Positions 1,210-30,581 of a DNA stretch of 39,731 nucleotides are shown in pieces. This DNA is from Chloroflexota bacterium (GTDB lineage: Bacteria > Chloroflexota > Anaerolineae > Anaerolineales > Villigracilaceae). The notes under the pieces are model-generated. The model saw only the letters and a program-made list of their open reading frames with translations, was not told the DNA's origin and ran no database searches. Location: the NCBI GenBank assembly GCA_026390015.1, contig JAPLGS010000113.1, positions 1 to 39,731 on the forward strand, in the 5' to 3' direction. Position 1 is the first letter of the stretch. Each line of letters begins with the position of its first letter. The position numbers and the translations under genes were made by a program.

Positions 1210-2031
1210 ATGAAATATCATTCCCCCCTCACATCCAACCCGGGCCTCAACACCCTGCCCATCAATCCATGTCAACTGCTCGATTTCAACTTGCTCAAAC
1301 TTGAAGCCGGTGAAAAACATAGTGCCACCAGCGGAAATCGCGAAATCCTGGCGGTGATATTAGGCGGCAAAGCCACCTTCACCGTCAATGGAATCAGCTT
1401 CGAGAAGGTTGGCGGGCGACCGAATGTCTTCAACGGCAAGCCGCATTCAGTGTATATTCCTGCCGGGGCCGAGTACAGCATTCAGGCCGAGGGCGCGGTT
1501 GAGATCGGCCTGTCCAGCGCACCCAGCGACCAGACCGGTATCCAGCCCTACGTCATCAGTCCCTCACAGGTAGCCAACGGCGTCTGGGGGGCAGCCAATT
1601 TCAAACGCTACTTCCATCAGATTCTCACTCTCGCCGCCCAACCTGAACTACCTGCCAGCCGGCTAATAGTCGGTGAGACATTCACCCCCAGCGGCAACTG
1701 GAGCACTTATCCGCCACACAAGCATCAGGTAGATGATCTACCGCGCCAAGCCTTTCACGAAGAGATGTACTACTTCAGAGTTAACCCCGTCGACGGCTTC
1801 GGCATCTGCCATTACTACAACGAAGAAGGCGAGGATGAAAATTTCACCATCCGCGACAACAGTATCCACATGCTACCGCGCGGATATCACACCGTTGTCA
1901 GCGCCCCCGGTTACACCACATATTACCTGTGGTTCTTGGCTGGCAATCAGCGCGTCCAAGCTACAGTAGATGATCCCGCGTTAGGCTGGGTCACCAAGAC
2001 GATCCCCATGTTGAAAGAATTGGGACATTAA
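1210..2031 (+). CDS. KduI/IolB-family uronate isomerase (closest in motif to 5-deoxy-glucuronate isomerase)
   Basis: A 273-residue double-cupin protein of the KduI/IolB family. The C-terminal half carries GNWSTYPPHKHQVDDLP, HEEMYYFRVNP and LPRGYHTVVSAPGY, the metal-binding His/Glu pattern and the wording typical of IolB rather than of KduI. IolB isomerises 5-deoxyglucuronate in inositol breakdown, while KduI isomerises 5-keto-4-deoxyuronate. No other iol gene is present, and the flanks are a GH88 hydrolase and a KduD-type dehydrogenase. The likely job here is therefore the KduI step (inference). The ATG is preceded by CAGGAG with normal spacing. The next gene starts 3 bases after its stop. 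Confidence 0.82.
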   Translation: MKYHSPLTSNPGLNTLPINPCQLLDFNLLKLEAGEKHSATSGNREILAVILGGKATFTVNGISFEKVGGRPNVFNGKPHSVYIPAGAEYSIQAEGAVEIGLSSAPSDQTGIQPYVISPSQVANGVWGAANFKRYFHQILTLAAQPELPASRLIVGETFTPSGNWSTYPPHKHQVDDLPRQAFHEEMYYFRVNPVDGFGICHYYNEEGEDENFTIRDNSIHMLPRGYHTVVSAPGYTTYYLWFLAGNQRVQATVDDPALGWVTKTIPMLKELGH

Positions 2032-10992: not shown

Positions 10993-11141
10993 AATGTACC
11001 ATATGACTTACGTAAGATCACCAGTGCTGCCACGAATTTCTCGAATTCACACGAACTATTTATATCTTGTAATTGGCGGCTAAAAGATTTTAAACTACGC
11101 AAGTCCTAGATCAACAACTTGATTTACGTGGAGTTGTGCTT

Positions 11142-14100: not shown

Positions 14101-17100
14101 GCGTTTCCAAATTCTTTAGTCCCAACCCGGTTCTTGTTGGAGAGTACTCTTCACTAACCATTACTATTACGAATTCAAGTAATATTGGTCTGGCAGGGAT
14201 GGAATTGAATGACACCCTGCCTGTTCTGCCTACAGGGTTAGTGATTGCAACACCTTCTGGAACAATACCTAATCCAACCAACAATTGTGGTGGGACTCTT
14301 ACTACAGTACCAGATACGCAATTGATTTCCCTGACTGGCGGGTCTCTTGTTAAGGCCGATGATAGCGTCAATCCATGGATTCCTTCCTCCTGTACCATTG
14401 TGGTAAGTGTGGTCAGCGCTGTACCTAGTGTATATATTAATACCATTCCTCCCGGCGGGTTAACTGCTACTGGTGGCGTAAGTAATAATCTGCCTGCCAC
14501 TGATACTCTCGTTGTGCTCTCCTCGTTGTATAGTTTGGGTAACCGTGTGTGGTTTGACACCGACAATAGCGGCACAATTAACGGCACCGAGATTGGAATC
14601 AACAGTGTGGATGTCCAACTATATGCCGCTGATGGAGGCGGCAGCCCTACTGGTCCATTGCTAGCTACCAAAACCACAGCCAATGGCGGGTATTATCGCT
14701 TTGACGATCTTGCTGCAGGTGACTACGTGGTTGTGATTCCATCCAGTGAGTTTGGTATTGGAGGTACGCTAGATGGATATTGGAGCAGCGCCACATCCCT
14801 GAGCGGCGGCGGCACCACTGAGACCGCCGCTCCAGACCCAGATACTGATATTGACAACGATGACAATGGCACATTACACACCGCCGTTGATGCATTCACT
14901 GGCGCCGTAATCAGCAGTGCTGTTACCTTGGGTGGAACACCTGCCGAGCCGATCACTGATACGAACGCAGACCCAACCAACCCTGCAGGCGAAGCCGTAA
15001 ATAATCGCAGCAATCGTACTGTGGATTTTGGTTTCTATCGTCAGGCTGTAAGCAATCAAATCTATGTGGACGCAAATAATGACGGTACCTACAACGCTGG
15101 CGACGTGGCACTTGCAGGCGCTCGTATTCAACTATTTGCCGGTGATGGGACAACAGAGATCAATGTAGGACCGGATGGAATTTTCGGTACGAGCGATGAT
15201 GCTCCCAATGGTGTGCTCACTGCGGCAAGCGGCACTTACCTATTCAGCGGCCTGCCGCAAGGTGACTATATAGTGAAGGTAACACCGCCAACCGGATACT
15301 CTAGCGCAGTGGATACTTTCAATAGCGGCGATACCACTACACCGAACAATAATATAAATAATAATGACAATGGCATTGGGACGGGCACCGGGCAGGTCTC
15401 AAGTAATCTAGTGACACTAACCCCGGGAAACCTGGGTGCCGCCACCAATAATGCTGTCAGCAATATTTCCGGTACGACCACCAACCCTACGTTGGATTTC
15501 GGGTTTACGATTCCATTGTTTAGTTTGGGGAACCGTGTGTGGTTTGACGCCGATAACAGCAGTACGATCAATGGGCTGGAGTCAGGAATCAACTTTGTCA
15601 CGGTCCGGTTGTATGCAGCCGACATTAGTGGCAATCCAACGGGCGCTGTATTGGCTACCAAAACAACAGCCAATGGCGGTTATTATCGTTTTGATAACCT
15701 GCTTGCCGGCGATTATGTGGTTATGATTCCCGCATTAGAATTCGGCACAGGCGGCGCACTGGATGGATATTGGAGCAGCGCCACCACATTAAGTGGAGCT
15801 GGTACCACGGAAACGGCAGCCCCCGACGCCGATAATGATATAGATAATGATGACAATGGCACATTACACACCGCCATTGATACATTCACTGGCGCCGTGA
15901 TCAGTAGTGCCATTACCCTGGGGCCTGGCGCTGTTGAACCTACCACCGATACAAACGCAGACCCAACCAACCCGTCTGGCGAGGCGATCGATGCTCAAAG
16001 CAACCGCACTGTGGATTTTGGTTTCTATCGTTCACAACTGGGAAATCAAATCTATACCGATGTGAACAACAACGGAACATATGATGCGGGCGACACTGCC
16101 CTCTCTACTGCAAATGTTCGGCTGTACGGAAGTGATGGCACTACCGAGATCAACGTTGGTCCGGATGGAATCTTCGGAACTGCAGATGATGCGGCCGGCG
16201 GCGTAACCACCGGCCTGGCCGGCACTTATTTATTCAACGGGTTGCCGCAAGGGACTTATATTGTGAAGGTAACACCACCGCTTGGATATACCAGCGCGGT
16301 GGATTCAGCTGACGCAACGGATACCTCCACGCCAAATACCAACATTGATGATAACGATAACGGCATTGGCATAGGTACCGGCCAGGTTTCCAGCAATACC
16401 ATAACGCTTACCCCTGGAAGTTTAGGCGCCGCAACCAACAACACGGTGACCAATTCCACGGGAACCACATTCAATCCCACGCTCGACTTTGGCTTCAATG
16501 CGCCCTTGTTTAGTTTGGGCAATCGTATTTGGTTTGATACCGATAATAGTGCCACAATCAATGGCGCCGAAGTCGGAGTAGATCTTGTTGCAGTGGAATT
16601 ATATAGGGCGGATATCAGCGGCAATCCCACTGGCGCGGTGTTGGATACCCAGACCACTGCCAATGGCGGTTATTATCGTTTTGATAACCAATCCGGTGGT
16701 GATTATGTGATTGTGATCCCATCCAGCGAATTTTCTGTTGGCGGAAAGCTCTTCGGTTATCTGAGCAGTGGAACAACTGTCAGTGCTGCGGGGGTTGTAT
16801 CAGAAACAGTAGTTGCACCAGATCCAGATAACAACCTGGACAGTGATGACAATGGCACCTTGCAAACAAGCGGAGTCTTCAACGGTGCAGTAATCAGCCT
16901 GGCTGTTACATTAGGGCCGACTCCAAATGAACCAACTACCGATACCGATGCAGATCCAACCAACCCGCCTGGAGAGGAAGCTAACAATCAAAGTAATCGA
17001 ACACTGGATTTTGGATTCTATCGTCAGATATTAAGCAACCAGATATTCATAGACGCGAACAATAATGGCACGTATGATACCGGCGACGGTAAACTGGCTG

Positions 17101-19961
17101 CTGCCACTGTCCGGTTATTTGCGAGCAATGGTTCAACAGAAATAAACATCGGCCCGGATGGCATTTATGGTACGGCTGATGATGCGGCCGGCGGCGTAAC
17201 CACCGGCCTGAATGGCACTTACTTATTCAGTAGTTTGCCCCAGGGGAATTACATTGTGAAAGTAACCTCCTTTGGTTTTACCAGCGCAATCGATACGGCA
17301 AACAGTGGTGATTCCACTACTCCGAACAACAACATCGATAACAATGATAATGGCATTGGCACGGGCATCGGTCAGGTCGCCAGTAATGTGCTCCCACTTA
17401 CACCCGGCAGCCTGGGTGCGGCTTCGAATAACTCTGTGGATAATGCGGCGGGCACCACATCCAATCCAACTTTGGATTTTGGTTTCACTCCATTATTCAG
17501 CCTCGGCAACCGCATCTGGTTTGATACCAATAACAGCGGCACGATCAACGGATCTGAAGTTGGCGCCAATGGAATCGGCGTTCAGCTATATGCGGCCGAT
17601 GGCAGTGGCAGTCCAACGGGCGCAGTTCTAAGCACCCAAATAACCGCCAATGGCGGCTATTATCGTTTTGATAATCTGTCAGCCGGAAATTATGTGGTTG
17701 TGATCCCATCCACTATATTTGGCGCCGGCGGCGCACTGGATGGATATTGGAGCAGCGGAACTGTCTTAAGCGGAGCTGGCACATCCGAAACGGCAGCTCT
17801 CGACCCTGATAATGATGTTGACAGCGATGACAACGGTACTTTGCAAACAAGTGGAACCTTTACTGGGGCAGTGATCAGCAAGGCAGTTACCTTGGGGCCG
17901 CTTCCCAATGAACCTTTGGGCGATTCAGATTCTGATCCTACATCACCTGTAGGAGAGGCTCCCAATCTTCAAAGCAACCGTACTGTGGATTTTGGTTTTT
18001 ATCGAGTTGAGCTGAGCAATCAAGTCTTTGTAGATGTGGTTGATGGCGGCTCGTATGGTGTTGGTGATTTTCCGCTGTCAGGAGCAACGGTACAACTCTT
18101 TGCCAGTGATGGAACCACTGAGATTAACGTGGGGACGGATGGTATCTTGGGCACGACGGATGATGTCAGTGGTGGTATGACCACAGGCGCCTCAGGTGTG
18201 TATCTTTTTAGCGGCCTGCCTCAAGGTTCATTTATCGTCAGAGTTATCCCTTTGAGCGGTTATGCCAGCACGGTGGATTCAGCTGTTCCTGGTGACACCG
18301 CAAACCCTGACCTCAATGCAGATAATAACGATAATGGTATTGGTACAGGTACAGGGCAAGTCTATAGCAAAGCGGTAACATTAACTCCCGGCGATGCGGC
18401 AACAAACAATCTCGTGACAAATTCAACCGGAACCACCACAAATCCAACGCTCGATTTTGGGTTTACATCCTCATTCACCAAGGCTTTGATCTCTTCAGAT
18501 GCAGCTCATACCACCGACCCGCACGTTGCGATTGGTGAGATTGCCACATATCAGATTAATATGTATATTCCGGTCGGCACTTTGAACAATGTTATTCTGG
18601 TGGATACCCCGCAAACCGGGCTTGCTTTCGTAGATTGTATTAATATAAGCATCCCGCAAAATGTGGCTAGTTCAAAGATTGTCAATGGCACCTGTGATAC
18701 CCGTGATGGTACATCAGCGGGAACCAGTAATCCACTCATCGAAAATTCCGGAGGCCGTGTCACCTTTGACTTTGGTAATGTAACCAACTCTTCTGCCGCG
18801 CCACTGGCCATCACTATTCAATATTCACTGATTGTCCTCGATATCTCCTCGAATCAGAACGGCGGCACATTAACGAATAATGTAGTCTGGTTATGGACGG
18901 GTGGAACTAAGACCACAAGCGCTCCCTTGGTTGATATGATTGAACCGGAAATAACGATTGACAAGAATGCCGAGCCAAGCATGGCTCCCTTGGGTGCTCC
19001 GATCACATTTAAAATAGATATTTCCCACTCAAATTTAAGCTCTGCAGATGCTTTTGATGTTGTCGTCACGGATGTCCTGCCCTCAGCTTTAACATTTATT
19101 ACAGGTTCAGAAAAATTTACCAGAACCTCGGGCACATTATTGCAAGCGCCTGTCATTTCGTATAACGTTGCTGCCACAACGCTTTCATTTATTTGGGATG
19201 AATTTCCCCTGGGTCAAAGCGCCCAACTGGAATTCCAGGCTACATTTATTGGCCCCTCACCGGCCAAGAATACTGCATCTGTCGAATGGACTTCACTTGA
19301 AATTGACCCCCTAACTCCAGGAGGTCCTCCACGCCAGAGATCTCCTTATCATGTAAATTCCACAGAACGTTGGTACGATCCTTTGGCTTCCGCTGGGTTG
19401 GATGATTATCGAGTAAGTGATTCGATCAGCATTGAAGTTCCCAGCGATCTGCCCAAAACAGGTTTTGCGCCGGGTGTTGTTACCACACTTCCACAGAGGC
19501 CACAGCACTTTTCCTACGCCCAAACTGACTTGATGATCGAGATCCCGCGGCTTGGCATCAAATTAAATATTGTCGGTGCGCCTTTCGGGAAGGATAATTG
19601 GGATCTTACCTGGTTGAGCAATAATGCAGGCTGGCTCGAAGGGTCCGCGTTCCCCACACATTCTGGCAATTCAGCCATCACGGCGCACTCTTATCTTTCT
19701 GACGGCACAGCCGGCCCATTTGCAAAATTGAATACACTGCGCTATGGAGATCAAATTATTATTACCCTCGCCGGATCGAAATACATCTACGAGGTTCGCC
19801 AGAATCTGCGAGTCAAACCGAACACGACATCTGTCTTAAAACACGAAGATCACTCTTGGTTAACCTTGATCACCTGCCAAACATATAGCGAGCAGTTGGG
19901 TGAATACATTTATCGTATTGTCGTGCGCGCGGTTCTGATCAAAATGGAACTGGAAAAGTAA
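11142..19961 (+). CDS. Giant secreted repeat protein (DUF11-like and SdrD_B repeats) with LPKTGF motif and C-terminal sortase domain
   Basis: 2939 residues from ATG 11142 (GGAG eight bases upstream; GTG 11136 is too close to it). The signal peptide is roughly residues 1-27 (hydrophobic FALIVILFVYPIQTVHA). Eight DUF11-like beta domains of about 135 residues fill about 30-1125, each opening like SKAFNPP...GGTSTLTITL. Four alternating pairs of SdrD_B-type domains fill about 1130-2442 (SLGNRVWFDTDNSG type, then NQIYVDANNDGTY type), with Asp/Asn-rich loops fit for calcium. Two further DUF11/D2-like domains span about 2445-2720. LPKTGF is at 2770-2775, then a class E/F-like sortase domain (about 2790-2935) with His2849 (ITAHSYLSDG), Cys2912 (LITCQTY) and Arg2925. 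The Cys-Arg spacing of 13 equals that of SrtA. There is no C-terminal membrane helix or basic tail. Probable role: surface adhesin or sheath protein. Confidence 0.88.
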   Translation: MPRSLSYLRFALIVILFVYPIQTVHALAIPAEINKQFTPILIDAGGISVLRVTIFNPNLFQLTSASWNDNLVGIQPGLKIANPASVVSTCGAGVTAVPGTTTFSLSAGTVPAQVGSTPGECYVEVNVTSTVSGNLINTILENNLSASGNDNGTVVSITNTTPASATITVIAVTPPSITKGFSPNTVWVGQTSTLTITVNNNDTNTDLTQTSYTDTLPTNVVLANPVSPNLTNCGAGASLAAVSGTSTVGLSNATVTPNLNCVVTVQVKSGVAGSYTNTIPAGPAGLGAIVTQQGVTNAALASAPLNVQPVGITKIFSSANVVAGGTSTLTITLQNPNGSDYTGANITDILPAGLTISGTPSSPQCGGTITNTSTSVTLTGGTIPASASPPSPLGTCTIVVTVAAPADSPTATRTNTISAGALTTTQLVTNPAPATFALNVQSGITVLKSFSPPSITVGGISTVTITLRNHTGSNFTGVNLTDSLPANLTVFGTPASPQCSGTITNTATSVSITGGTIPFSATPPGACTITFQVTSSVAATYSNTIPANDLTTAEGPKNTTTTTTSPNLIVNPAGGPVLVSKAFNTSPIAPGATSRLRITLTAPSDIGVSGINISDTLPGDLVIAASPIPVTTCGGTLTATIGTQLIKLIGGAIASASGTCTITVYVTTNTQGFYPNNIPANNVTTTQGRTNTSASNTPVLEVTGFTMSKAFNPPMVNANGLSTLTITLQNTGDSPLINVSLLSDTLPGSLVNGVVVAPFPNKSTTCTAGSVTADTGTQTISMSGAIVPAQVGGVPGICTINVDVQGTGSAAAHVNTIARANVSATVQDTGTVIHPFAQAQSTLTLGDLTITVVKGFNPVFVYGKGSSTLSVQLVNPNNTQLTGVTFTDDLNYVPPAGVQSGMRLANPPNFYVGTCGGVLSGNPGDSSFSFSGGVIPANSNCILTLSIVMDVNGNLTNTIPAGAVTTFNGARSTQAAQASLTDLPGASVSKFFSPNPVLVGEYSSLTITITNSSNIGLAGMELNDTLPVLPTGLVIATPSGTIPNPTNNCGGTLTTVPDTQLISLTGGSLVKADDSVNPWIPSSCTIVVSVVSAVPSVYINTIPPGGLTATGGVSNNLPATDTLVVLSSLYSLGNRVWFDTDNSGTINGTEIGINSVDVQLYAADGGGSPTGPLLATKTTANGGYYRFDDLAAGDYVVVIPSSEFGIGGTLDGYWSSATSLSGGGTTETAAPDPDTDIDNDDNGTLHTAVDAFTGAVISSAVTLGGTPAEPITDTNADPTNPAGEAVNNRSNRTVDFGFYRQAVSNQIYVDANNDGTYNAGDVALAGARIQLFAGDGTTEINVGPDGIFGTSDDAPNGVLTAASGTYLFSGLPQGDYIVKVTPPTGYSSAVDTFNSGDTTTPNNNINNNDNGIGTGTGQVSSNLVTLTPGNLGAATNNAVSNISGTTTNPTLDFGFTIPLFSLGNRVWFDADNSSTINGLESGINFVTVRLYAADISGNPTGAVLATKTTANGGYYRFDNLLAGDYVVMIPALEFGTGGALDGYWSSATTLSGAGTTETAAPDADNDIDNDDNGTLHTAIDTFTGAVISSAITLGPGAVEPTTDTNADPTNPSGEAIDAQSNRTVDFGFYRSQLGNQIYTDVNNNGTYDAGDTALSTANVRLYGSDGTTEINVGPDGIFGTADDAAGGVTTGLAGTYLFNGLPQGTYIVKVTPPLGYTSAVDSADATDTSTPNTNIDDNDNGIGIGTGQVSSNTITLTPGSLGAATNNTVTNSTGTTFNPTLDFGFNAPLFSLGNRIWFDTDNSATINGAEVGVDLVAVELYRADISGNPTGAVLDTQTTANGGYYRFDNQSGGDYVIVIPSSEFSVGGKLFGYLSSGTTVSAAGVVSETVVAPDPDNNLDSDDNGTLQTSGVFNGAVISLAVTLGPTPNEPTTDTDADPTNPPGEEANNQSNRTLDFGFYRQILSNQIFIDANNNGTYDTGDGKLAAATVRLFASNGSTEINIGPDGIYGTADDAAGGVTTGLNGTYLFSSLPQGNYIVKVTSFGFTSAIDTANSGDSTTPNNNIDNNDNGIGTGIGQVASNVLPLTPGSLGAASNNSVDNAAGTTSNPTLDFGFTPLFSLGNRIWFDTNNSGTINGSEVGANGIGVQLYAADGSGSPTGAVLSTQITANGGYYRFDNLSAGNYVVVIPSTIFGAGGALDGYWSSGTVLSGAGTSETAALDPDNDVDSDDNGTLQTSGTFTGAVISKAVTLGPLPNEPLGDSDSDPTSPVGEAPNLQSNRTVDFGFYRVELSNQVFVDVVDGGSYGVGDFPLSGATVQLFASDGTTEINVGTDGILGTTDDVSGGMTTGASGVYLFSGLPQGSFIVRVIPLSGYASTVDSAVPGDTANPDLNADNNDNGIGTGTGQVYSKAVTLTPGDAATNNLVTNSTGTTTNPTLDFGFTSSFTKALISSDAAHTTDPHVAIGEIATYQINMYIPVGTLNNVILVDTPQTGLAFVDCINISIPQNVASSKIVNGTCDTRDGTSAGTSNPLIENSGGRVTFDFGNVTNSSAAPLAITIQYSLIVLDISSNQNGGTLTNNVVWLWTGGTKTTSAPLVDMIEPEITIDKNAEPSMAPLGAPITFKIDISHSNLSSADAFDVVVTDVLPSALTFITGSEKFTRTSGTLLQAPVISYNVAATTLSFIWDEFPLGQSAQLEFQATFIGPSPAKNTASVEWTSLEIDPLTPGGPPRQRSPYHVNSTERWYDPLASAGLDDYRVSDSISIEVPSDLPKTGFAPGVVTTLPQRPQHFSYAQTDLMIEIPRLGIKLNIVGAPFGKDNWDLTWLSNNAGWLEGSAFPTHSGNSAITAHSYLSDGTAGPFAKLNTLRYGDQIIITLAGSKYIYEVRQNLRVKPNTTSVLKHEDHSWLTLITCQTYSEQLGEYIYRIVVRAVLIKMELEK
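14530..18466 (+). repeat. Four tandem copies of a two-domain SdrD_B unit, period about 990 bp
   Basis: First-type domains begin near 14530, 15520, 16508 and 17496, and second-type domains near 15046, 16036, 17026 and 18013. Every unit therefore alternates the same two domain kinds. Stretches such as GCCAATGGCGGTTATTATCG recur almost unchanged between copies. This is a coding tandem repeat inside the giant gene. It points to duplication of a two-domain block and may vary in copy number. Confidence 0.85.
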
Positions 19962-21375: not shown

Positions 21376-21945
21376 TTATTGATCCAAATAATTTGAAATA
21401 AGTGTATCGTAACTGGCTGTGGATTTATACCCTTTGAGCGCAAGTTTCTTTTTTTCTGCAAATGGAATTTCACCATGTTGCAGCATCAAAAGCACTTCGG
21501 CATAATCTGACGGATCACAGACCAGGGTAACACGTTCATGGTTTTTTGCGGCAGCGCGTATCAGGGTGACACCGCCAATGTCAATATTTTCGATGGCTTC
21601 GGCATACGTCACATTGGGTTTCGCGATCGTCTCTTCAAACGGATAAAGATTGACGGCGACAAGATCGATGTAATCCCAACCGAGGGCGAGCAGTTCATTA
21701 TGATCGAACTCGGTTGAGCGCGCTAGCAAGCCAGCGTGAATTGCGGGGTGCAAAGTCTTTACGCGACCGCCAAGAAGTTCAGGAGACTTTGTATAATCGG
21801 CAACTTCGGTGACGTTAATAGAATTATCGCGCAAAAGTTTAGCGGTTCCGCCAGAGGCAAGTAAAGACCAACCCAGAGCGGCAAGCCCTTTGGCAAAATC
21901 AACGAGGCCAGATTTATTGTGAACTGAGAGAATGGCTGCGGGCAT
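21376..21945 (-). CDS. purH: IMP cyclohydrolase, separate N-terminal half of PurH
   Basis: 189 residues corresponding to the N-terminal MGS-like domain of PurH, which closes FAICAR to IMP. Signatures are ILSVHNKSGLVDFAKGL, LLASGGTAKLLRD, ELLGGRVKTLHPAIHAGLLAR, VNLYPFEET and ENIDIGGVTLIRAAAKNH. In most bacteria this domain is fused to the AICAR transformylase in a protein of about 520 residues. Here it stops cleanly after the cyclohydrolase domain, and the transformylase is a separate gene 110 bases upstream. The AAAAGGAACTTAA before the ATG is a good ribosome binding site. This is a true gene split with its own signals, not a frameshift. Confidence 0.93.
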   Translation of the reverse strand: MPAAILSVHNKSGLVDFAKGLAALGWSLLASGGTAKLLRDNSINVTEVADYTKSPELLGGRVKTLHPAIHAGLLARSTEFDHNELLALGWDYIDLVAVNLYPFEETIAKPNVTYAEAIENIDIGGVTLIRAAAKNHERVTLVCDPSDYAEVLLMLQHGEIPFAEKKKLALKGYKSTASYDTLISNYLDQ

Positions 21946-22055
21946 TTAAGTTCCTTTTATTAATTGCTAAGGAGAAAACCTCTCCACAGATTTTATCGAT
22001 CAGGCAAATCTATTTTATCTTTTCTTGTGCGCTTGCTTCCTGTTTAAATATTCTG

Positions 22056-23231
22056 TTAGTGATGAAACAATCTTACACCACTAAACACCATGGCCATGTC
22101 ATATTCATCACAAACTGCGATGACATCTTCGTCGCGAGTGGAGCCGCCTGGCTGCAGAACATATTTCACTCCGCTTCCAGCCGCACGATCGATCGAATCA
22201 CGGAATGGGAAGAAGGCATCGGAACCGAGCACAACCTCAGACATGCCATCCAGCCACTCACGCTTCTCTGTTACTGATAATTGGCGCGGCAATTCTGCAA
22301 AGACATTCGTCCAATTGGATTTTTCCGCTTGGGTGACATCGGGCTGCAAAAATTGGTCAATGGCGTTGTCACGATCTGGACGTTTGATACCAGATTTGAA
22401 GGGAAGATTCAAAATATACGGGTGCTGACGCAGGCGCCACAAATCCGCCTTGGAAGCTGCCAGACGGGTGCAATGTACTCGTGATTGCTGCCCCGCACCC
22501 ACGCCTATCACCTGTCCGTCTGCTGCAAAACAGACCGAGTTGGACTGGGTGTACTTGAGAGTGATCCATGCGATCAGCATATCGCGGACTGCGTTTTCGG
22601 GCAACTCTTTTTTTATGGTGACCCTTTTGGCAAGATCCGCAGGGGTGACGAGACGCTCATGACGGCGTTGTTCAAACGTAACGCCAAAGACATCACGGGT
22701 TTCCTGAGCGGGCGGTTCATAAACAGAGTCAATTTGAACGACGGAATACTTGCCTTGTTTTTTCTTTTTGAGAATATCCAGCGCTTCCGATTCATAAGCA
22801 GGCGCAATGACACCATCTGAGACTTCGCGGCTGATGAGCTTCGCGGTGGGGACGTCAACAGTATCGGAGAGCGCAATCCAATCACCGAAGGAAGACATGC
22901 GGTCCACGCCGCGGGCGCGGGCATAGGCAACGGCGAGCGGCGAAAGTTCAATGTCATCTACAAAATAGATCTTCTTGAGCACATCTGAAAGCGGATTCGC
23001 GACCGCCGCGCCCGATGGGCTGACATGTTTGAAGGATGCCGCAGCAGGCAGGTGGATCACCGACTTCAACTCGCGGACCAATTGCCAGGAATTTAATGCG
23101 TCGAGTAGATTAATATAACCCGGCGAGCCGCTGAGAACTGTGATCGGCAAATCAACATCAGATCTCATAAAAACACGGGCTGGCGCTTGCTGGGGATTGG
23201 CGCCGTAGCGCAGTGGAAGTGAGGAAGGCAT
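22056..23231 (-). CDS. Stand-alone AICAR transformylase, resembling the eukaryotic ATIC domain
   Basis: 391 residues of the formyltransferase domain only. It transfers formyl from 10-formyl-tetrahydrofolate to AICAR. The catalytic Lys68-His69 pair lies in [15 protein letters not shown]. This is the KHVSPxGAAV wording of animal ATIC rather than the KHxNPCG wording of common bacterial PurH. Further matches to the animal-type domain are [61 protein letters not shown] and the final RLFHH. AAAAGG precedes the ATG. It is the first gene of the purine operon and is transcribed divergently from the his operon, whose HisF/HisH step releases AICAR, its substrate. Confidence 0.92.
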
Positions 23232-23375: not shown

Positions 23376-23404
23376 TTGCCAAATCCAGTTGGGATTGGTA
23401 TACT
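23376..23404 (+). promoter_or_regulatory. Promoter of the his operon leader
   Basis: TTGCCA (23376-23381) and TATACT (23399-23404) lie 17 bases apart, each one mismatch from consensus, and TG at 23396-23397 makes an extended -10. The predicted transcript start is near 23411, only about four bases before the ATG of the His-rich leader peptide, so that peptide would be nearly leaderless. Confidence 0.7.
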
Positions 23405-23414
23405 GCCACCCATT

Positions 23415-23507
23415 ATGACTTCAATGTTCGCGCATAAGCACCATGTTCATCATCACATCCCACCCGAAAGGCCGGGATATTCTTTGCGCGTACCTGAAAT
23501 AAATTAA
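23415..23507 (+). CDS. hisL: Histidine-rich leader peptide of the his operon
   Basis: A 30-codon frame, ATG at 23415 and TAA at 23505-23507, reading MTSMFAHKHHVHHH followed by IPPERPGYSLRVPEIN. Six of eight consecutive codons (7-14, 23433-23456) are histidine. The frame lies between an extended -10 promoter and a terminator hairpin directly before hisG, which is exactly the arrangement of a ribosome-mediated attenuator. There is no Shine-Dalgarno sequence, and initiation is probably leaderless or from the second ATG at 23424. It is too short for usual gene finders. When charged histidyl-tRNA is scarce, the ribosome should stall in the His run. The name is given by analogy with the enterobacterial leader; homology is not claimed. 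Confidence 0.8.
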   Translation: MTSMFAHKHHVHHHIPPERPGYSLRVPEIN

Positions 23508-23543
23508 CAGGATAGTGTGCTTTGTAATATCAATCCCCGGTCT
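23469..23543 (+). promoter_or_regulatory. Antiterminator pairing of the his attenuator
   Basis: AGGCCGGGAT (23469-23478) can pair with ATCCCCGGTCT (23533-23543) through ten pairs, with one G-U and one bulged C. The second segment is also the left arm of the terminator, so the two folds exclude each other. The first segment starts 13 bases after the last His codon. A ribosome stalled early in the His run leaves it free, and one that reads through covers it. CGCGCA (23429-23434) and TGCGCG (23485-23490) are also complementary and could form a further competing stem. Confidence 0.68.
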
Positions 23544-23559
23544 ACGACCGGGGATTTTT
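23532..23559 (+). terminator. Attenuator terminator upstream of hisG
   Basis: AATCCCCGGTC (23532-23542) pairs perfectly with GACCGGGGATT (23546-23556) around a TAC loop. It is followed by a T run (23555-23559) and TTTT after GC. It lies 25 bases after the leader-peptide stop and about 30 bases before the hisG ATG. This placement makes sense only for conditional termination. Confidence 0.85.
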
Positions 23560-23587
23560 GCTTTTATCTCACTTCAAGGAAGATCCA

Positions 23588-24586
23588 ATGACCTCACAAC
23601 AAACCATCCGACTCTCTCTCCCATCCAAAGGCCGTCTCGAAATTGACGCGCTTGAATTTCTCTCCGCTGCGGGTTTGAAGATATTCAAACCCAATCCGCG
23701 CCAATATCAAGCGGAGCTGCCCGCGCTGCCCGAGTTGGGAGTCATCTTCCAACGCCCCGGTGACATCGTCGTCAGCGTGCGTCAGGGCAGCATTGACTTT
23801 GGCATTACCGGCCTCGACATGCTCGAAGAAAAGCGCGGCGACGACGATGAGATCATCATCCTGCATGATTCTCTCGGATTTGGGAGCTGTGCGCTGACGT
23901 TAGCCGTTCCCGAAACCTGGAAAACGGTAACAGATATCGCGTCGCTCAAAGACTATACAGCTTCATTGAAAAACCCAGTGCGGGTGGCAACAAAATTCCC
24001 GGTATTAACTGAACGCTTTTTGAATCAAAATAATATTTCCCATACTTTGATCGCGGCCGAAGGTACACTTGAAAGTGCACCCACCATTGGTTACGCTGAC
24101 ATGATCTCTGACCTCGTCTCCTCCGGCCAAACTTTAATAGACAATCGTCTGCGCCCGCTGCCCGATGGTGTGATTCAAAAATCGCAGGCCGTGATAATAG
24201 CGAATCGCAAAGCCTTGCAGGCCCGTCCCGAAGTTTTGGAAATGGCACGGCGCTTGCTTGAATACATTGAAGCCCACATGCGCGCCAAGGATAATTTACT
24301 GGTCATTGCAAACATGCGCGGCGACAGCCTCGAAGTAATTTCACAAAAAATATTCACGCAAACCAATGTCGGCGGGCTGCAGGGACCCACCATCAGTCCC
24401 ATCGGAGTGCGCGCAGGAACGCCCAACTGGTTTTCGGTGACAGTCGTTGTGCGCCGCGATCACCTGCCGCAAGCCATCTCTGAATTACGTCTGATCGGCG
24501 GCAGCGGCATCATTGTTTCGCCCATCACTTATATTTTTGAAGAAGAGCCGCCGCGTTACAAAGCCATGCTCGAAGCCCTCGCATAA
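23588..24586 (+). CDS. hisG: ATP phosphoribosyltransferase, long form
   Basis: 332 residues. It catalyses the first step of histidine synthesis, joining ATP and PRPP. Motifs include RLSLPSKGRL at the start, GSIDFGITGLDML, VRVATKFPVLTERFL, and the phosphate loop EGTLESAPTIGYADMISDLV. The C-terminal part (about 240-332, VGGLQGPTISPIGVRAG) is the regulatory ACT-like domain of the long, hexameric HisG form, which binds histidine. No HisZ partner is needed. The ATG at 23588 has AAGGA about seven bases upstream. The in-frame TTG at 23558 lies inside the terminator T run and is rejected. Expression is expected to be set by the leader attenuator just upstream. Confidence 0.96.
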   Translation: MTSQQTIRLSLPSKGRLEIDALEFLSAAGLKIFKPNPRQYQAELPALPELGVIFQRPGDIVVSVRQGSIDFGITGLDMLEEKRGDDDEIIILHDSLGFGSCALTLAVPETWKTVTDIASLKDYTASLKNPVRVATKFPVLTERFLNQNNISHTLIAAEGTLESAPTIGYADMISDLVSSGQTLIDNRLRPLPDGVIQKSQAVIIANRKALQARPEVLEMARRLLEYIEAHMRAKDNLLVIANMRGDSLEVISQKIFTQTNVGGLQGPTISPIGVRAGTPNWFSVTVVVRRDHLPQAISELRLIGGSGIIVSPITYIFEEEPPRYKAMLEALA

Positions 24587-24595: not shown

Positions 24596-25942
24596 ATGCT
24601 CAAACAATATGATCCACAAATTGCTAAACAATCCATCCTCAAACGCACCCCGCCCGATGAATTTCCCGTCAGTCAACGCGTTCTGGATGGGATCACAAAA
24701 CTCTTCGGTGAATCGTTGACGCCCGAACAGGCAGTCACAAAAATTTTGAAGGATGTGCGGATGAATGGCGACTCAGCCCTTCAAAAGTGGACATTAGCCC
24801 TCGATTCGATCGACCGTGAGCCTGCTCCTGTTTCGACAGAAATGATCCAGGCTGCATTAGATTCGATCCCGTCCGCACAGCGTGACGCTCTCGAAAAAGC
24901 CGCCGCCCGCATTGAAGTATTTCATCGCAAGCAACCTTTGACATCGTGGTTCACCAATGATCTCGGCGGCACACTCGGGCAGATCATCCGCCCCATCCAA
25001 CGTGTGGGGCTATACGTCCCAGGCGGGACAGCTCCATTACCATCCACGGTTTTGATGAGCGCAATCCCTGCGCGGGTTGCGGGCGTGAGCGAGATCGTCG
25101 TTGTAACTCCTCCAAATCGCGCCCTGATAAATATCAACCCGCCCGTTGACCCAATCATACTCGCCGCCTGTGCCATCGCCGGCGTCGACAAAGTTTATTT
25201 GCTCGGCGGCGCACAAGCGATTGGTGCACTGGCGTATGGCACGCAAACCATTCAACCTGTAAATAAAATATTCGGCCCTGGCAATTTATTTGTCACCCTT
25301 GCCAAACGGCAAGTCTACGGCGTAGTTGGCATTGACGGGCTGGCTGGCCCAACCGAAACAGTGATCATCGCGGATGAATCCGCGAACCCTGCCTGGGTTG
25401 CCGCCGATCTGCTTGCACAGGCTGAGCATGATCTGTTGGCGTCTGCTATTTTACTGACCCCGTCACAGGCATTGATCAAAAAAGTAATAATGGAAGCCGC
25501 CAAACAACTGGAACAACGCGGCCGTGCCGATATTATTTTAGCTTCACTTGAAAATCGCGGTGGAGCTGTGCTGACTCGCGATCTGGATGAAGCCATGCAA
25601 TTGGCAAATGACTATGCTCCGGAACATCTTGCTTTATCTGTAAGCGAGCCGTGGCGCTGGGTGGAAAAAGTAAATAACGCTGGAGGTGTATTTGTCGGTG
25701 AGCATTCCTTTGAAGTGCTCGGCGACTATCTCGCGGGTCCAAGTCACGTCATGCCGACGGGCGGTTCTGCACGTTTTGCGTCGCCACTCAATGTATGGGA
25801 CTTTGTAAAAATCGTCAGCTTGATAGCGCTGGACAAAAACACAGTGCAGTCCATCGCTCCGGTCGCTGCGACAATTGCAGCATCTGAAGATTTGGATGCT
25901 CATAACCATGCCGCGATGATCCGCCTGGAGAAGTCAGTATGA
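24596..25942 (+). CDS. hisD: Histidinol dehydrogenase
   Basis: 448 residues, normal length. It oxidises histidinol to histidine in two NAD steps at a zinc site. Signatures are RVGLYVPGGTAPLPSTVLM, AGVDKVYLLGGAQAIGALAYGT, KIFGPGNLFVTLAK, DGLAGPTETVII, AEHDLLASAILLT, DYAPEHLAL and LGDYLAGPSHVMPTGGSARF, including the Gln, His and Asp residues used for zinc and catalysis. AAGGAGATATC precedes the ATG by a normal distance. It begins nine bases after hisG and overlaps hisC by ATGA. Confidence 0.97.
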   Translation: MLKQYDPQIAKQSILKRTPPDEFPVSQRVLDGITKLFGESLTPEQAVTKILKDVRMNGDSALQKWTLALDSIDREPAPVSTEMIQAALDSIPSAQRDALEKAAARIEVFHRKQPLTSWFTNDLGGTLGQIIRPIQRVGLYVPGGTAPLPSTVLMSAIPARVAGVSEIVVVTPPNRALININPPVDPIILAACAIAGVDKVYLLGGAQAIGALAYGTQTIQPVNKIFGPGNLFVTLAKRQVYGVVGIDGLAGPTETVIIADESANPAWVAADLLAQAEHDLLASAILLTPSQALIKKVIMEAAKQLEQRGRADIILASLENRGGAVLTRDLDEAMQLANDYAPEHLALSVSEPWRWVEKVNNAGGVFVGEHSFEVLGDYLAGPSHVMPTGGSARFASPLNVWDFVKIVSLIALDKNTVQSIAPVAATIAASEDLDAHNHAAMIRLEKSV

Positions 25943-27030
25943 AGATCCGCAAACATCTTGAATCCTTGCCGTCTTATACCCCCATCGAACCGTTTGAAGT
26001 TTTATCAGCGCGTCTTGGGCGAAGTTCTGATCAGATCGTCAAACTGGATGCCAACGAAAACCCATACGGCCCATTGAAGGTGGTGCGTGAAGCGTTGGCT
26101 GCTTTGGAATTCCCGCATATTTATCCTGACCCTGAGAGCCACGCCTTGCGAAAATCGCTCGCTGATTTTACAGGTGTCGGTGCTGAATACTTAATGGCGG
26201 GCGCAGGCGCGGATGAGTTACTCGATCTGCTCATGCGCGTCTTCCTTGAGTCGGATGATTGCGTCCTCTCCTGCCCGCCGACCTTTGGCATGTACTCCTT
26301 TGACGCAGAGCTCAATGCCGCACGCTGTATCGAAATCTCGCGCCGCCCAGATTTTTCACTGGATATGGAGGCCGTCCGTGAAGCAGTGAAAATTCATCAG
26401 CCGAAACTCTTCTTTATTACATCGCCGAATAATCCAGATGGATCAATTCTTGATGTGAAGATCATTGACGAATTATTGGAACTTCCGACTTTGGTTGTTT
26501 TGGATGAAGCCTACATTGAATTCGCAGATGAAAATCTTGGCGCAAGTTTGAGCTATATTCGCGAAGTGCCCTTGCGGAAAAACCTGGTGGTTCTGCGAAC
26601 ATTCAGCAAATGGGCGGGGCTGGCGGGTTTGCGAATTGGCTATGGCGCATTCCCACTCTGGTTGATGCCGACCTTGTGGAAATCCAAGCAACCATACAAT
26701 ATCAATGTGGCGGCGAGCGTGGCGGCGCAAGTCTCTTTGGAGCATGCAGATGAACTGGCTGAAATCGTGGAACTTTTGAAAAGCGAACGCGCAAGATTAT
26801 TTTCTGAGTTGCAGAAAATCACATATCTGAAACCTTATCCCACTCGGTCCAATTTTATTTTATGTCAGGTCATTGGCCGTGATGCGGCAGAGCTCAAAGC
26901 GCAACTGGCACAACAGCATGGAGTTTTTATCCGCTACTTCAACAAGGCTGGATTGCGCGATCATATCCGCATCAGCGTAGGCAGGCCGCAGGATTCAGAT
27001 GCGCTGCTGAAGGCGTTGGGAAATTTGTAA
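25939..27030 (+). CDS. hisC: Histidinol-phosphate aminotransferase
   Basis: 363 residues of the fold-type I PLP family. It converts imidazole-acetol phosphate and glutamate to histidinol phosphate. Visible are KLDANENPYGP, AGAGADELLDLLMR, the SPNNPDGS loop, VVLDEAYIEF with the cofactor Asp, and LRTFSKWAGLAGLRIGYG with the PLP Lys at residue 224. The C-terminal arginine region includes HIRISVGRP. The start overlaps the hisD stop (ATGA), so it is translationally coupled. It is followed by the only sizeable gap in the operon, about 190 bases, which holds a REP-like palindrome. Confidence 0.96.
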   Translation: MKIRKHLESLPSYTPIEPFEVLSARLGRSSDQIVKLDANENPYGPLKVVREALAALEFPHIYPDPESHALRKSLADFTGVGAEYLMAGAGADELLDLLMRVFLESDDCVLSCPPTFGMYSFDAELNAARCIEISRRPDFSLDMEAVREAVKIHQPKLFFITSPNNPDGSILDVKIIDELLELPTLVVLDEAYIEFADENLGASLSYIREVPLRKNLVVLRTFSKWAGLAGLRIGYGAFPLWLMPTLWKSKQPYNINVAASVAAQVSLEHADELAEIVELLKSERARLFSELQKITYLKPYPTRSNFILCQVIGRDAAELKAQLAQQHGVFIRYFNKAGLRDHIRISVGRPQDSDALLKALGNL

Positions 27031-27078
27031 AGTTAATAAGTTGATTAACCACCTGACAGTTTATTTGATGGTGACTAC

Positions 27079-27121
27079 GTTGGTCGAGTAGGCGGCGCTC
27101 TCCCGCCGTATCGAGACCAAC
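27079..27121. repeat. REP-like imperfect palindrome between hisC and hisB
   Basis: GTTGGTCGAGTAGGCGG and CCGCCGTATCGAGACCAAC flank a 7-base centre. The inner GGCGG/CCGCC stem is preceded by a GTAG tetranucleotide, the layout of REP elements moved by RAYT transposases. The same GGTCGAGTA...TATCGAGACC wording is common in high-copy intergenic repeats of other bacteria. The rest of the 27031-27221 gap shows no gene. Confidence 0.55.
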
Positions 27122-27221
27122 CTTGAGCAGAAAATGCCAGGTAGTTAGAAAATTGGCAGGTTGAAAGACGGATAAACGTTCAAACTTCTCAACTTGCAAC
27201 CTGTAACCCGAAGGAGTAATT

Positions 27222-27809
27222 ATGCGAACTGCTGAAATATCACGTCAAACAAATGAGACACAAATTACGATCAAACTAAATATAGATGGAAGCGGTCAGT
27301 ACGAAATCGCCACTGGCATTGGATTCCTCGACCACATGCTCACGCATCTGGCTGTGCATGGATTATTCGATATAACTGTTCAAGCGCACGGCGATCTCGA
27401 AGTAGATGCGCATCACACAATGGAAGACACCGCGCTGGTACTGGGACAAGCCTTCGACAGGGCACTTGGCGACCGCAAGGGAATTGTCCGCATGGGGGAT
27501 TGCTTCGCGCCTATGGATGAAACGCTGGCGCATGTTGCCCTGGATCTGTCGGGGCGCCCATACGCGGTGATACAGGCGGATTGGCACACGCCTCATGTCG
27601 GAAACATCCCAACCACTTTGTTTCCTCATTTCTTCGAGTCATTCGCGGTGACAGCACGCTGTAATCTACATGCGCGCATATTGTACGGCCGTGACGATCA
27701 TCATCAAGCAGAGGCATTATTCAAAGCGTGGGCGCGCGCGCTCGATCAAGTGACGCAAATAGACCCGCGCCGCGCGGGAGTGATCCCGTCTACAAAAGGG
27801 ACATTGTAA
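27222..27809 (+). CDS. hisB: Imidazoleglycerol-phosphate dehydratase, monofunctional
   Basis: 195 residues, the usual size of the single-domain enzyme. The two metal-binding repeats are visible: [17 protein letters not shown] with [17 protein letters not shown], and [19 protein letters not shown]. It dehydrates imidazoleglycerol phosphate to imidazole-acetol phosphate. The HAD phosphatase domain of the enterobacterial bifunctional HisB is absent, so histidinol-phosphate phosphatase must be supplied by another gene. GAAGGAG precedes the ATG by six bases. It is separated from hisC by a gap with a REP-like repeat and followed by hisH after 12 bases. Confidence 0.97.
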
Positions 27810-27821
27810 AAAGGATGAAGG

Positions 27822-28436
27822 ATGAAAAAAGTTATATTAATAGATGCAGGCACTGGCAATCTACGTTCCGTTCAAAAAGCGTTGGAAAGCATTGGCGCGG
27901 ATGTGCTGCGCACCGACGACCCGAATAAGGTTTTATCTGCCAAACAAGTTGTATTGCCAGGAGTAGGCGCCTTCGGTGATTTTATGTCAGGGCTGCGTGC
28001 GCGTGGATTAGAGTCAGTAATCAACGAGATCGCGGCACGAGGAGTTCCTTTGCTTGGAATTTGCGTGGGCATGCAAGCTTTATTTGAAACGGGTGAAGAG
28101 CTGGGCGAATACGCCGGGCTTGGATTATTACGCGGGCGCGTGGGGCGCTTTGCAGAATCGCTGTCAGTGAAGATTCCGCATACAGGGTGGAATCAACTCA
28201 CTGTCAAAAATGACGCGCTGCTTTTTGATCAGATAAAAGATAAAACCTATGTTTATTTCAATCACTCATATTTTTGTCAGCCAAAGAATTTATCGGATGT
28301 GATCGCGACGACGGATTATGGTTTGCAATATACGTGCGCGGTACAGCGCGAAAACATTTTCGGAGTGCAGTTTCATCCGGAAAAAAGTCAGGGTGTGGGT
28401 TTGCAAATCTTAAGAAATTTTTTGGAGGCGAAATGA
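27822..28436 (+). CDS. hisH: Imidazole glycerol phosphate synthase, glutaminase subunit
   Basis: 204 residues, class I glutamine amidotransferase. It shows IDAGTGNLRSVQKALE at the start, the oxyanion region LPGVGAFGDFM, the nucleophile Cys81 in LGICVGMQALFE, and His185 and Glu187 in VQFHPEKSQGVGLQIL. It releases ammonia from glutamine and channels it to HisF, where the ring closes and AICAR leaves. AAGGATGAAGG precedes the ATG. The stop overlaps hisA by ATGA, so the next gene is translationally coupled. Confidence 0.97.
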   Translation: MKKVILIDAGTGNLRSVQKALESIGADVLRTDDPNKVLSAKQVVLPGVGAFGDFMSGLRARGLESVINEIAARGVPLLGICVGMQALFETGEELGEYAGLGLLRGRVGRFAESLSVKIPHTGWNQLTVKNDALLFDQIKDKTYVYFNHSYFCQPKNLSDVIATTDYGLQYTCAVQRENIFGVQFHPEKSQGVGLQILRNFLEAK

Positions 28437-29158
28437 TCATTTATCCCGCGATTGACCTGCGCGGCGGCAAAGTGGTGCGCTTGAAAGAAGGCGACCCCAC
28501 GCGCATCACGTCCTACAGCGACGATCCTGCCGGGACGGCAAGGCGTTGGTTGACGATGGGCGCGAAGTGGCTGCATGTGGTTAACCTTGATGGCGCGTTC
28601 GGCGATGGCGATGACGCAAATCAAATCGCCCTGATTTCCATTTTGAAGACTACCAAAGAGTTTGGCGCGCACGTGCAATTTGGCGGCGGATTGCGTTCCT
28701 TGGATTCAATTGAAAAAACTTTGAATCTAGGTGTGAGCCGTGTTGTGCTTGGAACGATTGCGGTGGAACAACCCGATGTTACGGTAAGCGCGTTGAAAAA
28801 ATTTGGCGCGGAAAAAATCGCGGTTGGAATTGATGCCCGTGATGGAATAGTTCGCGTGCGTGGATGGCAATCGGATGGCGGAATTTCTGCGCAAGACCTC
28901 GCTCTTCAAATGCAAACATTAGGTCTGCGTACTGTTATCTTTACAGATATTCGCAGAGACGGTTTGGGCAGCGGCTTGAACATTCCCTCCACCCGTCAAT
29001 TGGCAGATGTGAGCGGCCTCGAAGTGATCGCCTCGGGCGGCGTAAATACGTTGGATGATGTGCTGGCGGCGAAAATTGCAGGCTTATCAGGTGTCATTGT
29101 GGGACGCGCTTTATATGAGGGGACGATCGATCTGAAAGCTGCTATAAACGGACTCTGA
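28433..29158 (+). CDS. hisA: ProFAR isomerase (phosphoribosylformimino-AICAR-phosphate isomerase)
   Basis: 241 residues, a beta/alpha barrel performing the Amadori rearrangement before HisF. It has [17 protein letters not shown] with the catalytic Asp8, two half-barrel phosphate sites (QFGGGLRS and [11 protein letters not shown]), and [14 protein letters not shown] with the second catalytic Asp. The start is the ATG overlapping the hisH stop, with GGAGG just upstream. A longer frame from 28274 lies inside hisH and is rejected. hisF follows after 35 bases. Confidence 0.96.
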
Positions 29159-29193
29159 CACGGATACGGACAAAATTTAAGAGGAGTTTTTAT

Positions 29194-29949
29194 ATGCTGG
29201 CAAAACGAATTATTCCCTGTCTTGACATAAAAGATGGGCGTGTGGTGAAAGGCATCAACTTTATCAACTTGCGTGACGCGGGTGACCCTGTCGAGCAGGC
29301 GCGCTTGTATGATACGCAAGGCGCGGACGAGTTGGTCTTTCTCGATATTTCCGCGACATTAGAAGGACGCAACACCACGCTCGAATTGGTCAGCCGCGTG
29401 GCGGAGACAGTGTTCATGCCGCTGACTGTCGGCGGTGGAATTCGCGCAGTGGACGATATGCGGAATCTTTTGCTCGCTGGCGCGGATAAGGTCAGTATCA
29501 ACTCGGCAGCGGTGAAGCGACCCGAATTATTATCTGAAGGCGCAGCGCGGTTTGGCGCGCAATGTATTGTGCTGGCGATTGACGCGCGCAAAATTGGATC
29601 AAGCTGGGAAGTATATGTCAATGGCGGGCGCACGCCAACAGGCTTGGATGCGATCGAGTGGGCAGTGCGCGGCGTTAAACTGGGCGCAGGTGAAATCTTA
29701 ATTACGAGCATGGATGCCGACGGCACACTCGCTGGCTACGATCTGGATTTGACCCGCGCCATTGCCGAAGCAGTCTCCGTACCAATTATCGCCTCAGGCG
29801 GAGCTGGTGCTTCATCCCATTTTGCATCAGTGCTGACTGATGGCAAAGCCGATGCCGCGCTGGCAGCCTCACTTTTTCATGATGGGAACTTACTCATCCC
29901 TGCGCTAAAGAGCGAGTTGCAATCGCTAAACATTCCAGTAAGAATATAA
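29194..29949 (+). CDS. hisF: Imidazole glycerol phosphate synthase, cyclase subunit
   Basis: 251 residues, the barrel partner of His[21 protein letters not shown] carries the catalytic Asp11. [11 protein letters not shown] and [13 protein letters not shown] are the two phosphate-binding loops, and [20 protein letters not shown] holds the second catalytic Asp. [22 protein letters not shown] is diagnostic of HisF over HisA. Products are imidazoleglycerol phosphate and AICAR, and the latter feeds the divergent transformylase gene. GAGGAG precedes the ATG. Confidence 0.97.
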
Positions 29950-29973
29950 ACATTTCAATATTGGAGGAAACCC

Positions 29974-30306
29974 ATGCAGGAATTTCAACCTAAAATTGAA
30001 TTTGACGCGAATGGATTAATCCCTGCGATCGTGCAGGATGTAAAAACGAATGAAGTACTGATGCTGGCTTATATGAATGCTGAATCCTTGAGACTCACAA
30101 TATCCACAGGTGAAACCCATTTCTGGTCACGCAGTCGTCAGGAATTGTGGCACAAAGGCGCGACATCGGGAAATATTCAACGGATGGTTGAAATCCGCGT
30201 AGATTGCGATGGGGACACTTTATTAATTTTCGTTCAACCCGCAGGGCCTGCCTGTCATACTGGAAATCAAACCTGTTTTTATCGTTCGATGGAGAATCAA
30301 AAATAA
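29974..30306 (+). CDS. hisI: Phosphoribosyl-AMP cyclohydrolase
   Basis: 110 residues, single-domain form. It hydrolytically opens the adenine ring of phosphoribosyl-AMP. [23 protein letters not shown] and the metal and zinc ligands in [30 protein letters not shown] are complete. TGGAGGAAA precedes the ATG. The stop and the hisE start overlap by one base (TAATG), so the cyclohydrolase and pyrophosphohydrolase, fused in E. coli, are separate but tightly coupled here. Confidence 0.97.
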
Positions 30307-30581
30307 TGAGCATTCAATGGTTGTTTGATGTAATTCAATCGCGCAAGGAAAACCCATCTGAAAAATCCTATACATCCAGTCTTTTCAAGAAGGGCCTGCT
30401 GAAGATCGCGCAGAAGGTTGGAGAGGAAGGCACGGAAGTTGTTGTGGCGGCACTTGCACAGGACGATCAACGTCTGATCGAAGAAGTAGCCGACCTCACT
30501 TATCACACACTCGTACTGTTGTCAGCCCGTGGATTATCTCCCGCAGATATACTGGCTGAATTGGAGAAGCGCCATAAATGA
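30306..30581 (+). CDS. hisE: Phosphoribosyl-ATP pyrophosphohydrolase
   Basis: 91 residues of the all-alpha MazG-like HisE family: LFDVIQSRKENPSEKSYTSSLF, KIAQKVGEEGTEVVVAAL with the metal-binding glutamates, and EEVADLTYHTLVLLSARGL. It removes pyrophosphate from phosphoribosyl-ATP. The start at 30306 in TAATG is chosen because the family begins just before LFDVI; a frame from 30204 would run through hisI. Its stop overlaps the next gene by ATGA, tying the HAD hydrolase gene to the operon. Confidence 0.95.
   Translation: MSIQWLFDVIQSRKENPSEKSYTSSLFKKGLLKIAQKVGEEGTEVVVAALAQDDQRLIEEVADLTYHTLVLLSARGLSPADILAELEKRHK

Follow-up and report, generated by a model that had tools for sequence, protein, structure and literature searches.

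The region upstream of hisG in the window (the whole analysed stretch of 39,731 nt) raises the question of whether the histidine operon of a Chloroflexota genome is controlled by a leader peptide, as the earlier note proposed, and how ribosomes might load onto a leader frame whose ATG lies only 10 nt beyond the end of a -10 box, a short distance absent from that note. The window is part of contig C123 of a 4.3-Mb genome that is 95% complete, and NCBIfam assignment revealed a nine-gene operon, hisG-D-C-B-H-A-F-I-E, starting at 23588. The suspected Chloroflexota-like lineage was borne out by an identical HisG (100%) in the record of an uncultured Chloroflexi MAG and by the labels of the other loci retrieved with hisG (denoted L), nearly all of which were Chloroflexi, Anaerolineae or members of Anaerolineae. 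One locus (L018) was labelled Alphaproteobacteria; its HisG is 76% identical to that of the window, its upstream sequence looks unrelated, and mislabelling or misassembly is possible.

A total of 356 nt separates hisG from a divergent ORF starting at 23231 (purH-like, by eye), and the promoter, the leader ORF and the terminator are all located inside this interval. Beyond it, two minus-strand ORFs at 21376-23231 look like the two domains of purH encoded by separate genes (by eye), adjoined by purB, and a plus-strand ORF of 2941 aa at 11136-19961 shows repeated domains like those of surface adhesins and a sortase-like end (by eye). Within the operon, the hisC-hisB gap (27031-27221) comprises 191 nt with no annotated frame and one 11-nt inverted repeat.

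Sequence and comparison established the parts of a leader, their order and spacing, their covariation, a near-constant promoter-to-ATG distance and a tie to his genes (Table 1). The arrangement that the earlier note regarded as suited to ribosome-stalling attenuation was recovered in full in the window and found conserved and covarying in relatives: the 17-bp-spaced promoter and the 30-codon frame with six His codons in eight are present as described, and the terminator hairpin (23532-23556) has 11 perfect pairs, a 3-nt loop and a T run. The segment that pairs with the left arm of the terminator, 13 bases past the last His codon, was likewise confirmed, with its start corrected from 23469 to 23470. 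In the window, segments 2 and 3 pair over 7 bp (GGCCGGG/CCCGGUC, with one G-U), followed by an A-U and a U-A pair across a bulged C, and segment 1 is situated 7-10 nt beyond the last His codon. The stretch of six His codons is unique among the stop-free eight-codon stretches of the window (both strands, all frames), and none occurred in 40 dinucleotide shuffles of the window.

Table 1. Positions of the operon genes, the leader and its RNA segments in the window.
Feature	Positions	Strand	Basis or remark
Sigma-70-like promoter, TTGCCA-17-TATACT, TG before -10	23376..23404	+	10/12 consensus matches
Expected transcription start zone, 5'UTR about 0-5 nt	23410..23414	+	placed from the -10 position
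Leader ORF, 30 codons, MTSMFAHKHHVHHHIPPERPGYSLRVPEIN, no Shine-Dalgarno-like motif	23415..23507 (ATG 23415, TAA 23507)	+	sequence
Control codons, six His in eight (HKHHVHHH)	23433..23456	+	sequence
Segment 1 (CCCG)	23463..23466	+	can pair with 23473-23476 (CGGG), short 1:2 hairpin
Segment 2, antiterminator strand	23470..23478	+	pairs with segment 3
Middle hairpin GCGCGUACCUG...CAGGAUAGUGUGC, left arm GCGCGTACCTG	23486..23520	+	leader stop codon in loop
Segment 3, left arm of terminator	23532..23542	+	
Segment 4, right arm of terminator and T run	23546..23559	+	
AAGGA, Shine-Dalgarno-like motif of hisG	23576..23580	+	sequence
hisG	23588..24586	+	first operon gene; long form with C-terminal domain; TIGR00070, TIGR03455
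hisD, hisC, hisB, hisH, hisA, hisF, hisI, hisE	24596..30581	+	NCBIfam matches
hisE	30306-30581	+	last operon gene; NCBIfam

It is highly likely that these parts constitute a transcription attenuator of the ribosome-mediated kind, one that responds to charged tRNA-His, controls hisG-D-C-B-H-A-F-I-E and starts at or near the leader AUG; where the transcript starts, that the frame is translated, and that stalling and termination occur in dependence on histidine are predictions from sequence. The first base of the transcript would be the A of the leader AUG or lie a few bases ahead of it, and a ribosome would load on the bare 5' end without a Shine-Dalgarno motif. Under scarce charged tRNA-His, the ribosome would stall in the His run and cover segment 1, leaving segment 2 free to pair with segment 3 on its emergence, such that no terminator would form and the polymerase would continue into hisG. 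With ample histidine, the ribosome would move on across segment 2 and then the middle hairpin. Segment 2 would be masked or folded on segment 1, the 3:4 terminator would form and transcription would end near 23560.

Promoter geometry and the start of the leader transcript

In each of 62 non-identical leaders analysed, the distance from the end of the -10 hexamer to the ATG was 6-11 nt, and in 43 of them it was exactly 10 nt. Of this set, 43 leaders (the window and 42 relatives) stem from a scan in which a -10 box 7-12 nt upstream of the ATG was a precondition, the same 42 relatives having been found earlier by a scan free of this condition; the other 19 were added, several of their starts being picked by eye after the -10 box had been seen. 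Some retrieved leaders (e.g., L075, L104, and L105) lie outside the set. A -35 box with at least 4/6 matches was present in 59 of the 62, and an SD-like motif in none of them. By comparison, such a -10 box preceded 372 of 11750 background ATGs in the window and L002-L052 (leaders included), 79 of the 372 also having a -35 box, and among the first ATGs of long ORFs in the same loci, which are not necessarily true starts, it preceded 13 of 286, with an SD-like motif at 165 of 286. In the available part of PMC3160421, leaderless genes are recognized by a TA-like box located about 10 bp upstream of the start codon, and 4 of 12 Chloroflexi genomes are reported to contain such genes.

Given this short distance between -10 box and ATG and the lack of an SD-like motif in the 62 leaders, the leader transcript is probably leaderless, starting at the AUG or a few bases before it. 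The same attenuator could also work with a transcript that begins further upstream and has an ordinary 5'UTR, or with translation from an internal start, which would accord with the second in-frame ATG at codon 4 of the window's leader and with the distant hisZ leaders, described below, in which L141 and L142 appear to have a longer 5'UTR (L151 and L153 look leaderless; all by eye); however, the fixed position of the -10 box, the accompanying -35 box and the missing SD-like motif across very different leader sequences make such a start unlikely. The promoter-to-AUG geometry is so nearly fixed that one can test whether leaderless ribosome loading is able to drive the tight ribosome-polymerase coupling that attenuation needs.

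Conservation, RNA pairing and other modes of control

The hisG search yielded 53 loci, of which 51 were examined, with L053 and L054 left out as hisG fragments. A short upstream ORF with at least three His codons in eight was found in 42 of the 51, with L015 (27 nt upstream), L018 (by eye, another gene precedes hisG) and L026 (leader cut by the contig end) counted as misses; in six of the nine loci lacking a His-rich ORF (L039, L047-L050, and L052), all with a hisG from Chloroflexota, the region upstream of that gene is complete. A stricter mechanical scan for a His-rich ORF plus terminator detected 39/51 in the sense and 0/51 in the antisense orientation, missing L016, L017, and L022, which all carry leaders. 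Among further hisG loci, the ORF and terminator were found in 13/34 of the same class in sense and 0/34 in antisense orientation, and in 0/20 from other classes of the phylum. These 54 loci are the best-scoring ones from the genomes in which hisG was matched (116 of 150 for the class, 121 of 151 for the phylum), so that the fractions are not rates for the whole phylum. As such, aligning the upstream regions of hisG, which the earlier note had proposed as a check, uncovered a conserved His frame with a covarying terminator and antiterminator in relatives.

In a HisG tree of 75 rows (quick search, no bootstrap), comprising the window, 23 of the 51 hisG loci (thinned) and 51 of the 54 loci L075-L128, the 35 leader rows and one non-leader row (L039) formed a single clade with an SH-aLRT of 97. 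The leader label required 2 changes on this tree versus about 25 for shuffled labels, a comparison in which near-copies cluster by themselves. Loci omitted from the tree include two without a leader (L018 and L049), L084 (short upstream region), and L093 and L103 (no protein). L079 and L081, whose leaders have just two His codons apiece in the run, were labelled by eye. In L039, where hisG lies at 2010, a -10 box precedes the ATG by 12 nt, the short ORF has only two His codons and a terminator was recognized by eye, suggesting that it is a probable decayed copy of the leader; the simplest reading of the tree is one gain and one loss.

A covariance model of the leader (R1) matched 18 of 396 class genomes at E <= 0.001, mainly in the window's own family, a limit set by the strong divergence among leaders. 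Of the 20 places it marked, those in L070 and L074 have no His codons and are regarded as chance; there was also a weak match on the minus strand at 37564-37623 of the window (E 0.049). In L073 (G372:C47), a separate His leader, MRNCSLHHHHQALPSTGWAA, with a -10 box 10 nt before its ATG, stands in front of hisD; the hisG of that genome (by eye) has its own leader on another contig (L059).

In statistics that do not control for kinship among the leaders, the antiterminator (2:3, 7 bp) was paired in 95.4% of 217 cells in an alignment of 31 leaders, with 25 doubly changed cells versus 10.3 in shuffles and a covariation score of 0.256 versus 0.139 (0/500 shuffles as high), and the leaders' own segment 2/segment 3 duplexes averaged -15.3 kcal/mol versus -12.4 kcal/mol for partners swapped between sequences (0/5000 permutations as low). 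Sliding the partner by one base lowered the pairing to 62% or 36%, and with slides of up to three bases it reached at most 64%. The doubly changed 2:3 pairs are only two and adjacent, a count not above shuffles (299/500 as high), and further pair types fall below shuffles (500/500 as high); the changes consist of A-U/C-G in the window's group versus G-C/U-A in another group, with L006 showing C-G to U-A alone. The terminator was paired in 94.4% of 321 cells, with double changes at five pairs (3/500 shuffles as high), and segments 2, 3, and 4 change together because segment 3 pairs with both of the others. In distant families the letters are unrelated and the layout is the same, e.g., UCGAAGG/CCUUCGA in L078 and CCGAAGG/CCUUCGG in L079 (by eye).

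For the 1:2 hairpin (CCCG/CGGG), the four pairs are kept in 27 of 32 aligned sequences, counting G-U, and five sequences lose one. L014 and L016 have a compensated CCTG/CAGG form, in which the change in segment 2 keeps the 1:2 pairing and breaks one 2:3 pair. The middle hairpin was only slightly more stable than shuffles (mean z -1.03, 32 sequences), and whole-leader folding was moderately more stable (z -2.5 and -3.7), which was not counted as evidence.

The leader DNA GCGCGTACCTG after the His run is kept in close relatives though it is read in different frames, which argues that the RNA rather than the peptide is conserved at this place. This bears on a reading in which the ORF, being conserved and His-rich, encodes a functional small peptide (e.g., for metal binding) and the terminator acts as a constitutive brake on the operon; stalling in the window is a prediction, yet such a peptide is very improbable in view of the frame changes, the narrow distance from the His run to segment 2 (9-18 nt from the last His codon, median 15), the covariation of the antiterminator strand with the terminator, and the his gene found behind the leader wherever looked at, including hisD in L073.

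Control by a T-box or by a HisR/TrpR-type repressor, with the His-rich frame incidental, is more improbable still: the genome does contain seven T-box (RF00230) matches (L170-L176), three of them above the gathering score, but none is at his, the leader region matched neither RF00230 nor RF00514 (His_leader) even at E <= 10, and no protein of the Trp_repressor family, to which HisR belongs according to the available part of PMC9413887, was found in the 95% complete genome. No Rfam family reached gathering in the leader region, and eight matches there, all far under gathering, were taken as chance, the best by E-value being anti-hemB (E 0.037, 18.8 bits vs 49.5 at gathering). The three above-gathering T-box matches lie next to ileS, thrS, and pheS, and the four weaker ones next to leuS, serS, valS, and trpE, with the ileS and valS assignments cut by the locus end and below the NCBIfam cut-off. 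Thus, the contrast drawn in the earlier note with other phyla, which were said to use mostly T-boxes or repressors, needs qualifying, given that the host itself has T-box matches on other operons and none at his. Since the single-clade his leader sits in a genome with T-box matches at six aminoacyl-tRNA synthetase genes and trpE, leader-peptide and T-box strategies may operate side by side in one cell. A search for a leaderless Trp leader with one narrow pattern (TATACT, 9-11 nt, ATG, then TGGTGG) gave one match in 21 genomes, in another family, versus six for the reversed control pattern.

The preferred attenuator was further modelled by folding with a ribosome on the last His codon, 9 nt beyond it blocked and the transcript cut just after segment 3. 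In this placement, at least five expected 2:3 pairs formed in 32/32 leaders, so the 'on' side of the switch is well supported within the model. With the ribosome at the stop codon, at least five expected 2:3 pairs formed in 14/32, the window being borderline with 4.4, and mean 1:2 pairing was 1.75 versus 0; with no ribosome the number was 21/32, the window among them. A further modelled 'mid' state, in which pairing is masked, has zero pairing by construction and carries no weight. Segment 2 ends 16-31 nt upstream of the stop codon and would thus stay uncovered by a ribosome paused there. The 'off' side is thus only partly reproduced by folding, and, given this distance, the terminating state would have to rely on a moving ribosome (timing), on the 1:2 hairpin or on disruption of the middle hairpin.

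Histidine leaders before hisZ and the origin of the clade's leader

A second type of His leader was detected about 1.3-1.8 kb upstream of short-form hisG in L141, L142, L143, L146, L151, L153, L155, and L156, and also in L162 from another class. In this type, HHH lies near the end of the short ORF, the stop codon is spanned by a GGGTGAG/CTCACCC-like hairpin, and ACTAGTC or ACTGGTC often occurs within the terminator (all by eye). Its ORF plus terminator was found in 9/40 regions in the sense and 0/40 in the antisense orientation, and hisZ followed in the seven checked out of the eight from the window's class; inspection by eye gave no alternative pairing that would explain a switch. In L155, the leader ORF (1700-1772, minus strand) directly follows a tRNA-Thr gene, and its true start is probably further in, because the start given by the scan falls within the last ten bases of that gene.

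With moderate confidence, it is proposed that a whole Anaerolineae clade carries a leaderless his attenuator of its own origin, in which leaderless initiation replaces the Shine-Dalgarno motif in synchronising ribosome and polymerase, and that the non-classical hisZ leaders in other families, as part of the same proposal, point to repeated invention in Chloroflexota. A ribosome would load on the naked 5' AUG as the AUG leaves the polymerase. In this picture, the control elements would have diverged into unrelated sequences (GGCCGGG, GGUCGGG, and UCGAAGG types) while the start geometry stayed nearly fixed. The earlier note had called the attenuator independently evolved or little-described. The latter holds, as no description of a his leader peptide in Chloroflexi or Anaerolineae was found in the literature searched, which is weak evidence with most subscription papers outside coverage; an independent origin we only infer, from the lack of any Rfam His_leader match at E <= 10 and the confinement of the leader to one HisG clade of the Chloroflexota tree.

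Comparison with known leader systems

The leader described here appears to differ in outline from the fold of enteric hisL: its 1:2 hairpin is short, and its segments 2 and 3 would pair directly, enclosing the middle hairpin. The enteric hisL attenuator (RF00514), as presented in the available part of PMC9413887, resembles it in having a leader peptide with His codons and mutually exclusive antiterminator and terminator before the his operon, whereas the present leader gives no covariance-model match, has no SD-like motif and almost no 5'UTR, and belongs to another phylum. For Firmicutes, the same part of PMC9413887 lists candidate his attenuators in the Bacillus cereus group, Peptostreptococcaceae and Erysipelotrichales and gives the proteobacterial His-leader motif as not found among Firmicutes, and the available text of PMC2965389 describes two hisS paralogues of bacilli that are preceded by His leader peptides (hisZ/hisS leaders). 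Set against the Chloroflexota leader by description, these candidates likewise combine a His leader peptide, with 3-5 His codons in a row, and an attenuator with terminator and antiterminator outside Proteobacteria, but they belong to three separate groups of another phylum and carry no mention of a leaderless start in those portions of the two papers. In the excerpts of two further sources, Chloroflexi are named once, with the leader-gene distances there called insignificant (PMC4833913), and no conserved RNA structure is reported at the histidine operons of Actinobacteria (PMC1262725).

Leaderless loading in attenuation is not new in itself, because the leaderless trpL of Sinorhizobium meliloti and the polycysteine ORFs of mycobacteria are known. 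Polycysteine leaderless short-ORF attenuators of mycobacteria were reportedly described by Canestrari et al. in 2020. In the S. meliloti trpL attenuator, according to the available part of PMC7298713, the leader ORF transcript starts at the ATG, as is probable here; unlike the present leader, it concerns tryptophan in an alphaproteobacterium and has been studied experimentally. The mycobacterial ORFs (PMC9031893, in its available part) similarly use contiguous codons of one amino acid to regulate downstream genes, although the amino acid is cysteine, the action described is on downstream translation and that part makes no mention of a terminator switch. Leaderless leader peptides with histidine codons were not found described in the literature searched. 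Leader attenuation of his operons, described for Proteobacteria and, in the available parts of PMC9413887 and PMC2965389, as candidates for some Firmicutes, would now extend to a single deep clade of Chloroflexota. In summary, the mechanism itself is a known one, and its phylum, its probable leaderless start and its clade-wide conservation are new as far as the search reached.
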